A stretch of DNA of 64,000 nucleotides from Rhizobium sp. BG4 (GTDB lineage: Bacteria > Pseudomonadota > Alphaproteobacteria > Rhizobiales > Rhizobiaceae). Position numbers and translations under genes: made by a program. Position 1 is the first letter of the stretch. Each line of letters begins with the position of its first letter. The notes beneath the pieces are model-generated. The model was not told the DNA's origin, ran no database searches, and saw only the letters and a list, made by a program, of their open reading frames with translations. Shown one piece after another: positions 30,242-31,307 of the stretch. The stretch covers positions 2,134,501 to 2,198,500 of the forward strand of contig NZ_CP044125.1 of NCBI RefSeq assembly GCF_016864575.1, given 5' to 3'.

Positions 30242-30877
30242 TCAGCGGGCAGGCGTTGCCTGCATCGGGCGCAGGGTGTTCATCAGCGCGCCGTAAGGCA
30301 GCAGCATGATGAGGCCGACCAGCATCTTCACGGTGAAGTCGCCGAGCGCCCAGGAAATCCAGCGCGGGGCCTCGATCGAGAGCACGCCAAGGATCGGTGC
30401 CGTTTCGAGCGCGAAGGGTTCGTTCGGGCCGAAGAAAACAAAGAAGGCTGCGAAGGCGAACGAGAAGAAGATGATCGTATCGAGCGCCGAGCCGATCAGC
30501 GAACCGACCAGCGGCGCGCGCCACCAGGCTTGGCGGCGAAGGCGGTTGAAGACCGAGATGTCGAGCAGCTGGCCTGCGAGATAGGCGGAACCGGAAGCGA
30601 TCGCGATGCGCGGGACGGCCGTATAGAAAGATAGGCCGACGCCGACGACAAAGCCTGCGAAAACGACCTTGCGGGCGGTCTGCGGGCCGAATTGGCGGTT
30701 CGTCAGGTCGGTGATCAGGAAGGCGATCGGATAGGTGAAGGCGCCCCAGGTCAGGATGTCGGCAAGATTGATACCGGCAACCGTCGCGTTCAGCGGAAAC
30801 TGGACGAGGAAGTTGGAGGCGACGACGACGAGCGTCATCAGGGCCACATAGATAAGCAGATAGCGTGTCTTCAGCAT
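30242..30877 (-). CDS. yhhQ: Queuosine precursor transporter (YhhQ, ECF-like DUF165)
   Basis: A 211-residue membrane protein with about six helices. DUF165 hallmarks are ADILTWGAFTYPIAFLITDLTNRQFGPQTARKVV and YLAGQLLDISVFNRLRR, then SAYLAGQ and DTIIFF. YhhQ imports preQ0/preQ1, precursors of the tRNA base queuosine. ATG 30877 (MLKTRYLL) is the start. It sits directly behind a preQ1-I-like pseudoknot whose 3' strand contains this AUG, so translation is probably repressed by preQ1. Confidence 0.9.
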   Translation of the reverse strand: MLKTRYLLIYVALMTLVVVASNFLVQFPLNATVAGINLADILTWGAFTYPIAFLITDLTNRQFGPQTARKVVFAGFVVGVGLSFYTAVPRIAIASGSAYLAGQLLDISVFNRLRRQAWWRAPLVGSLIGSALDTIIFFSFAFAAFFVFFGPNEPFALETAPILGVLSIEAPRWISWALGDFTVKMLVGLIMLLPYGALMNTLRPMQATPAR

Positions 30878-30903
30878 TTTTTTATCCTGGGTGATGCCAC
30901 CAG
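30872..30903 (-). promoter_or_regulatory. Candidate preQ1-I riboswitch overlapping the yhhQ start codon
   Basis: On the reverse strand CUGG (30903-30900) pairs with CCAG (30890-30887) as P1. The loop UGGCAUCAC contains GCAU, which pairs with AUGC of the start codon and next base (30877-30874) as P2, extendable by G-U and U-G pairs. AUAAAAAA joins the two. In the B. subtilis preQ1-I aptamer the U after the first P1 strand, the C before the second P1 strand (the preQ1-pairing base), CACCC and AUAAAAAA occupy the same places. The ribosome site AGGA lies inside the fold. Confidence 0.72.
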
Positions 30904-30944
30904 TTGGAGTGAACAAATTTTGGCCGGCACCATGCCGGCAAAGC

Positions 30945-30980
30945 AAAAGGCTTGTCCGGTATCAACCGTGCAAGCCTTTT
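30945..30980 (-). terminator. Rho-independent terminator of rpmB
   Basis: AAAAGGCTTG pairs with CAAGCCTTTT, with a second inner stem (CGGT/ACCG around ATCA). It lies about 30 nt downstream of the rpmB stop on the reverse strand and upstream of the yhhQ leader, so it isolates the two genes. Confidence 0.78.
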
Positions 30981-31010
30981 GAAACTTTCGAGAAGAAAGC
31001 TGACCGATGC

Positions 31011-31307
31011 TTACGCAGCAGCGGCTTCTGCAGTCTTCTTGACGATCTGGCGGCGCAGCAGACGAGCGCGCATCGACAGTTCGTTTTCGCTTGCCTTGAT
31101 CAGGAACGCATCGAGGCCACCGCGGTGTTCAACCGAACGCAGAGCGTGGGCCGAAACACGGAGACGGTAACGCTGGCCGAGAGCGTCGGAGATCAGCGTA
31201 ACCTGGCACAGGTTCGGCAGGAAACGACGCTTGGTCTTGTTGTTGGCATGGCTGACATTGTTGCCAACGAGGACGGCCTTGCCGGTCAATTCGCACACGC
31301 GAGACAT
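31011..31307 (-). CDS. rpmB: 50S ribosomal protein L28
   Basis: A 98-residue ribosomal protein, the alphaproteobacterial length. Start [34 protein letters not shown] and [21 protein letters not shown] are characteristic. The frame extends upstream, but ATG 31307 is the family start. It has its own terminator and a 237-nt upstream region shared with the divergent DUF3108 gene. Confidence 0.96.

Follow-up and report, generated by a model that had tools for sequence, protein, structure and literature searches.

A probable class I preQ1 riboswitch variant with a pseudoknot built on the yhhQ start codon in Rhizobium sp. BG4 and its family

A 30-nt RNA ending one base past the start codon of yhhQ, the queuosine precursor transporter gene of Rhizobium sp. 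BG4, is in all likelihood (a probability of roughly 0.85) a riboswitch that turns translation off in response to a queuosine precursor, most likely preQ1, and a new class I variant whose nearest relative is type III. At 30 letters, it resembles a natural metabolite switch of very small size. Class I preQ1 riboswitches serve as models of how RNA senses small molecules. The element lies in a 64,000-nt stretch of NZ_CP044125.1 (2,134,501–2,198,500), which is called the window and whose coordinates are used below.

The whole aptamer occupies 30874–30903 on the minus strand and is numbered from position 1 at 30903, so that position n is 30904-n and the last base, position 30, is the one 3' of the AUG. 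On the minus strand, 30903–30874 is CUGGUGGCAUCACCCAGGAUAAAAAAAUGC, which reads as CUGG, U, G, GCAU, CA, C, CCAG, GAUAAAAAA and AUGC. P1 is formed by CUGG (positions 1–4, 30900–30903) and CCAG (positions 14–17, 30887–30890); the final AG of the latter begins the Shine-Dalgarno-like AGGA at 30885–30888, which is thus partly inside P1 and stands 7 nt 5' of the AUG. U5 (30899) corresponds to U6 of the solved E. coli type III riboswitch, where its role has been described (PMC10622847, excerpted text), and is followed by the subtype-defining G6-G7 (30897–30898), in which G7 is paired with the base after the AUG. The 5' strand of P2, GCAU (positions 7–10, 30894–30897), and its 3' strand, AUGC (30874–30877), which is the start codon and the next base, are assigned by pairing and covariation. 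Between them lie L2 (C-A) with C13 (30891–30893), the presumed ligand-specificity base corresponding to E. coli C14 (PMC10622847, excerpted text), and the L3 A-tract (positions 21–26, 30878–30883), an A-run of 7 in 139 of 144 loci when the A of the AUG is counted. An earlier sequence-only reading had proposed P1 as CUGG/CCAG and P2 as GCAU/AUGC with the start codon, and both pairings are correct on the minus-strand sequence; its ribosome site AGGA was likewise located (30888–30885), and its A-rich linker holds except that it omitted the first G of GAUAAAAAA.

The yhhQ gene (30242–30877, minus strand) was identified by profile matches to PF02592 and TIGR00697; its frame opens at the AUG at 30877–30875, and its product scores 91.6 bits against TIGR00697 (cut-off 50.95). 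The same-strand upstream neighbor, outside the element, is rpmB for ribosomal protein L28 (PF00830, 31011–31307, minus strand), and a scan of 30800–31100 found no promoter-like or terminator-like sites. By eye, an inverted repeat, AAAAGGCUUG ... CAAGCCUUUU, was seen downstream of rpmB at 30942–30980 on the minus strand; it is possibly the rpmB terminator, with a loop exceeding what the terminator scan permits. In addition, CUCC(AA) directly 5' of P1 is common to many close relatives (CUCCAA at 30904–30909, minus strand, in the window) and fades in distant members; its UCC could pair with GGA at positions 17–19, giving an alternative fold that hides AGGA.

In the predicted mechanism, which covers ligand, binding and switching direction alike, the 4-bp P1 hairpin would present a 9-nt loop and contain the leading AG of the Shine-Dalgarno-like AGGA; when ligand is bound, loop bases 7–10 would pair with AUGC, and P2 would be built from the start codon itself. 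If the homologous E. coli structure is taken as a guide, the ligand's guanine face would be recognized by C13 and the rest of the pocket supplied by U5 and the A-tract, with the A of the AUG in the pocket ceiling. High precursor levels would then block yhhQ initiation and stop import. The P1 hairpin alone is stable in the 30-mer (-5.4 kcal/mol), and the isolated duplexes come to +1.4 kcal/mol for CAU/AUG and -2.0 kcal/mol for GCAU/AUGC; the three-pair P2 of the U6 subtype described below is therefore weak by itself, and the ligand would have to stabilize it.

A protein search found yhhQ in 234 of 247 sampled genomes of the window's GTDB family, and the leaders of 90 of these (the 30 best matches and 60 picked for more genera) were read. 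The motif is present in 87/90 despite unrelated sequence farther upstream; the three exceptions (L047, L070, L072) have neither the motif nor a match, even with filters off, to R1, a covariance model built from 24 of the motif-bearing family leaders. U5, C13 and the A-tract, the contacts whose conservation had been proposed as a check, occur in all 87 motif-bearing leaders, with a search pattern that already included U5, C13 and ATG; U5 and C13 are also present in 30/30 family rows of an alignment. R1 matches 219 of the 247 family genomes (E up to 0.01; 8 of the 28 no-match genomes are inferred from gaps in the genome list), and comparison of the lists places the motif in 219 of the 234 genomes with yhhQ and 0 of the 13 without it (Fisher p 2.5e-14, for genomes that are related). 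Laxer filters gave only weak partial matches in two of these 13 (G122, E 0.021; G048, E 0.066). Fifteen sampled family genomes have yhhQ and no R1 match. Six of these fifteen are genomes of 1.1–1.6 Mb (G006, G091, G093, G111, G168 and, by inference from a gap in the list, G228) and may represent Bartonella-like species; it has been reported that the YhhQ of B. henselae takes queuine too (PMC11570991, excerpted text). Second R1 matches in G039 and G199 were rejected, there being no suitable gene at those places.

Both P1 and P2 covary, which is the outcome of the leader alignment that the sequence-only reading had suggested for compensatory changes. The 144 distinct loci adjoining yhhQ comprise 53 distinct aptamers. 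They were collected with a pattern that fixed G4, U5, CAU, C13, C14, the A-tract and AUG and left free positions 0–3, 6, 7, L2, 15–19 and the base after the AUG; the invariance of the fixed columns and of P2 pairs 8–10 is therefore partly by construction. Among these loci P1 is CUGG/CCAG in 142, CUAG/CUAG in one (L176/L223) and CCGG/CCGG in one (L189), so that it varies in only 2 of the 53 distinct family aptamers; the other P1 changes, to CAGG/CCUG, come from two Clostridial loci (L222, L229). These were obtained in a scan of species contigs with the pattern GTNCCATNNCCNNNNNTAAAAAAATGG, which demands AUGG and leaves P1 free except for the top pair. It returned 35 loci, 31 alphaproteobacterial and 4 from Firmicutes; all 31 of the former have complementary P1 strands and 29 of them adjoin yhhQ, while among the latter L203 and L216 lack P1 and L222 and L229 have CAGG/CCUG plus a fifth pair. 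Covariation was scored on 45 exact distinct rows, namely 42 of the forms seen at the 144 loci, all free of length changes, together with L222, L229 and L189. Four pairs are changed on both sides, in 20 such cells, and the covariation score is 0.081 against 0.026 for shuffled rows, with 0/500 shuffles as high; the rows are related, so the shuffles yield no probability. A partner slide of +2 columns scores 0.068. For further pair types, of which there are 7, the rows show no excess over the shuffles (mean 6.3, 210/500). Pairs 1-17 and 4-14 and the P2 pairs 8-29, 9-28 and 10-27 are invariant and thus uninformative, several being fixed by the collecting pattern, and pair 0-18 is missing in 30/45 rows. 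The element is not coding, for the lengths of L2, U and the A-run are off by one nucleotide in 5, 3 and 5 of the 144 loci, respectively.

The features of class I preQ1 riboswitches are found here: an H-type pseudoknot whose loop pairs with the 3' tail, by covariation; a C right before the 3' strand of P1 and a U right after its 5' strand, bases whose roles have been described (PMC11625349 and PMC10622847, excerpted texts); an A-rich tail between P1 and P2; and placement at the queuosine-precursor transporter genes yhhQ and queT, observed as position, with control predicted. The proposed likeness to preQ1-I is thus supported, with the difference that the nearest relative is the type III element of E. 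coli yhhQ and not that of B. subtilis. The E. coli leader (L194 5179–5213, K-12) reads UUGGG UUCCCU CAC CCCAA ... AAAAAGG. Its pocket, floor and ceiling are formed by G5, U6, U7, C8, U11, A13, C14, C15, A25, A26, A27 and A28, its P2 pairs are C9-G30, C10-G29 and U11-A28, and it binds preQ1 and switches in vivo, preQ1 being repressive; the type is described as almost exclusively gamma-proteobacterial (PMC10622847, excerpted text). Shared with it are the gene yhhQ, the H-type pseudoknot, the short loop, the A-rich L3 and the AC preceding the 3' strand of P1. The likeness is closest in the U6 subtype, which maps one-to-one onto type III: with L2 = CA (30 of 55 U6 loci), it is identical to the type III core at 15 of 17 positions (E. 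coli 5–15 and 25–30), and the two differences are a single compensatory pair, C10-G29 to A-U, by which the Shine-Dalgarno AAGG becomes AAUG. The U6 loop UUCCAUCAC is one base apart from E. coli UUCCCUCAC; the chance of at least 8 of 9 loop bases matching in a fixed register is about 1e-4 (28/4^9).

There are also departures from type III. The P2 of type III uses the Shine-Dalgarno AAGG, whereas the start codon AAUG is used in the window and in every motif-bearing leader, ATG being contained in the search pattern. Type III has UU after the 5' strand of P1 and a pyrimidine-rich loop, whereas the window has UG and UGGCAUCAC, and only the U6 subtype (51/119 loci) has both type III features. Type III has three conserved G-C pairs in P1 (PMC10622847, excerpted text) and here there are two, at the top of a 4-bp helix whose third pair, counted from the top, is U-A or, in variants, A-U or C-G. 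In addition, where E. coli has U7 and C8 the window element has G6-G7, and its P2 gains a fourth pair instead; the host range also differs, the present element belonging to an alphaproteobacterial family. Because of the departures at the core positions U7 and C8, the window element is not type III by published definitions and is called a new class I variant. Type I has UC before the 3' strand of P1 and UU after its 5' strand, in contrast to AC and UG in the window, and UC at that place (L2 = CT) occurs in 6/144 loci. Type II (B. subtilis, T. tengcongensis) shares, by published description in excerpt, the AC before the 3' strand of P1, the U after its 5' strand and the A-rich tail; in the T. 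tengcongensis element only the first two Shine-Dalgarno bases are held (PMC10622847, excerpted text), and the B. subtilis element acts on transcription (PMC11625349, excerpted text). Direct-occlusion riboswitches similarly hide initiation signals in a ligand-stabilized pseudoknot, typically with the ribosome-binding site in the 3' helix P2 (PMC10907184, excerpted text), whereas here P2 contains the AUG itself and the Shine-Dalgarno-like sequence is partly in P1.

A search with the preQ1 family models had also been proposed, with the lack of any score counted against the riboswitch, and such a lack is what was found: the curated Rfam model RF00522 (PreQ1) has no match in the window, the leader or the genome. 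This result does not discriminate, since no family of Rfam 15 matches the E. coli type III leader either (E up to 10), an element of known structure. R1 gives only 4.1 bits to the E. coli leader within its own 10 kb; the homology to type III therefore rests on residue mapping rather than on a profile score, and R1 cannot bridge to gamma-proteobacteria.

The subtypes are distinguished by position 6 and by a fourth P2 pair between position 7 and the base after the AUG (pair 7-30). This pair is Watson–Crick in 68/68 G6 loci (59 G-C and 9 C-G) and no standard pair in 51/51 U6 loci, so that the 119 loci counted, which leave out the 35 of the AUGG-pattern scan, divide into 59 of a GG form, 9 of a GC form and 51 of U6. 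Thirty-two of the 119 were retrieved by R1, a model with a column for the base that follows the AUG; among the 87 fetched via yhhQ alone, pair 7-30 is present in 58/58 G6 and 0/29 U6. Exceptions to the U6 rule are three Jiella loci of the AUGG-pattern scan (L214, L218, L219), which have U6 with AUGG. The remainder of the second codon is variable. When the 6/7 type is mapped by parsimony on a YhhQ tree of 143 loci, 11 changes are needed, where shuffled labels need 64 on average; the subtypes thus follow the tree yet have switched repeatedly.

The window has G6, and this bears on an alternative that we consider unlikely, namely that the fold is a riboswitch as proposed and the G6 subtypes, that of the window included, sense another compound of the queuosine pathway, e.g., preQ0 or queuine. 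G6 stands in place of the E. coli base U7, which positions an adenine touching preQ1; YhhQ imports both preQ0 and preQ1, and class I types differ in their discrimination between the two (PMC10622847, excerpted text). G6 forms are also common, as the counts of the GG and GC forms show. Against this, U5, C13 and the A-tract are unaltered in the G6 subtypes, and a GC-subtype aptamer is also found before queT, another precursor transporter gene.

The relation of P1 to the Shine-Dalgarno-like sequence is visible at position 0, where a C would give a fifth pair. In G18 loci, in which AGGA is present, C0 occurs in 2/127 and a U0 wobble in 9/127, while the frequency of C at the eleven preceding positions is 29 to 78 of 127; in C18 loci, which have no AGGA, G0 occurs in 17/17. 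P1 is held at four pairs where it overlaps the Shine-Dalgarno. The motif AUG is in frame with yhhQ, with no stop, in 131 distinct contexts. It is not the start in 11 loci (L185, L186, L188, L190, L197, L199, L204, L207, L208, L215 and L224), the seven named members of which are all Aureimonas; in 10 the AUG is out of frame, and in L207 an in-frame stop follows it. All 11 have C18 in CCAGC, hence no AGGA, and carry an AUG or GUG in the yhhQ frame 12–16 nt after the motif AUG, with an additional in-frame start at 7 or 4 nt in L190, L204, L215 and L224. AUGGA in these loci sits where a ribosome-binding site would, and it may have taken on that role. The loss of AGGA and the loss of the start are not strictly tied, since in five C18 loci (L187, L206, L211, L213, L228) the motif AUG is still in frame. 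None of these loci, start-shifted or in frame, has lost P1 or the CCAU/AUGG pairing; thus P2 is not kept merely as a start codon. In one Clostridiales genome, a GC-subtype aptamer (L222) ends in AUGGGAGGA before queT (PF06177, E 7.5e-43). A near-identical aptamer with AUGGAGG was also seen near a contig end of an Oscillibacter MAG (L229, 164–196, minus strand). The Clostridial side consists of these two loci, with the queT assignment made for L222.

These loci also weigh on a second alternative, a ligand-free structured initiation site in which hairpin and pseudoknot set a fixed low rate of translation. The element does span the whole initiation region, and the stability of the P1 hairpin by itself suits such a role. 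It is nevertheless improbable, as conservation extends to unpaired loop bases that match the type III pocket, P2 persists at loci whose AUGG is not the start codon, and the motif is tied to two precursor-transporter families, yhhQ and queT. For the riboswitch itself, it is reasonably probable that a fourth class I preQ1 subtype is represented, in which P2 is the start codon and its A lies in the pocket. This subtype would include interconvertible U6 forms (3-bp P2, type III-like) and G6 forms (4-bp P2, reaching into the second codon). In Aureimonas the P2 strand would have been re-used as a ribosome-binding site after a downstream shift of the start, so that the platform passed from start-codon to Shine-Dalgarno sequestration with the aptamer fixed, and the Clostridiales queT element would be the latter state outside alphaproteobacteria.

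Outside the family, the motif was not found beside yhhQ. The leaders of 39 members of the order from other families, and family leader L157, gave no pattern match, the best R1 score being 9 bits (E 0.95) with filters off. Searches of wider samples used Infernal's stricter filters, which lose weak matches: among 297 order genomes every strong match (12, with E of about 1e-9 or below) belongs to the window's family, and none of the weaker ones (loci L103–L117) has yhhQ; among 385 class genomes the sole strong match is that of the window and three weak ones are without yhhQ; and in 299 phylum genomes, searched with model R2, all 13 strong matches are family members and none of the 7 fetched from among many weak ones has yhhQ. 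Twelve matches on viral contigs were set aside, with no yhhQ nearby and no convincing P1 by eye. The sequence CTGGTGGCATCACCCAG or a near copy was noticed in L111, L106 and L258, away from yhhQ and, by eye, inside an apparent infB coding sequence; these copies are coincidental matches to the P1 hairpin. Recognition of the element by a protein or a small RNA, e.g., in feedback by ribosomal protein L28, would fit the near-verbatim conservation and rpmB directly upstream on the same strand; it is very unlikely given that the 39 non-family leaders lack the motif, several of them apparently also downstream of rpmB (by eye, on partial sequence), and that the aptamer recurs at the Clostridiales queT locus. 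Chance resemblance, which might be suggested by the occurrence of the 17-mer CTGGTGGCATCACCCAG away from yhhQ in another genome (L111), the hairpin part alone being able to arise by chance, is refuted by the matches in 219/247 genomes, the covariation and the yhhQ linkage, and the observation is confirmed as real.

S. meliloti is reported to be impaired in symbiosis when queC, queF or tgt is mutated, and hardly so when queA is; preQ1 supplied in the medium reportedly restored the HeLa-cell phenotype in the queC and queF mutants, which indicates that the organism takes up preQ1 (PMC3568095, excerpted text). In the genome of the window (G000), Tgt was found at E 2.6e-120 and a QueF-like match at 2.8e-7, and the E. 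coli QueC query gave no match at E up to 1e-3; of 12 other genomes in the genus, 11 have a QueC match, at E of about 1e-24 or below. No description of the element itself was found in the titles and abstract openings of the papers listed by searches of open-licence PubMed Central, and the phrase "start codon" is absent from the main text of PMC10622847 and PMC11625349; the class I platforms described in their excerpted texts act on the Shine-Dalgarno or on transcription.

The Rfam PreQ1 model passes over this start-codon variant and the solved E. coli element alike; the lack of any match for the latter is a gap in Rfam. The finding would add an expression platform built from the start codon to class I preQ1 riboswitches and provide a natural series in which the platform has changed and the aptamer is constant; in the G6 forms, RNA structure would fix the first base of the second codon. 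If QueC is truly absent, Rhizobium sp. BG4 may depend on precursor import. For the family as a whole, the element would bring class I preQ1 riboswitches into most genomes (219/247 sampled) of a large alphaproteobacterial family that includes rhizobia.
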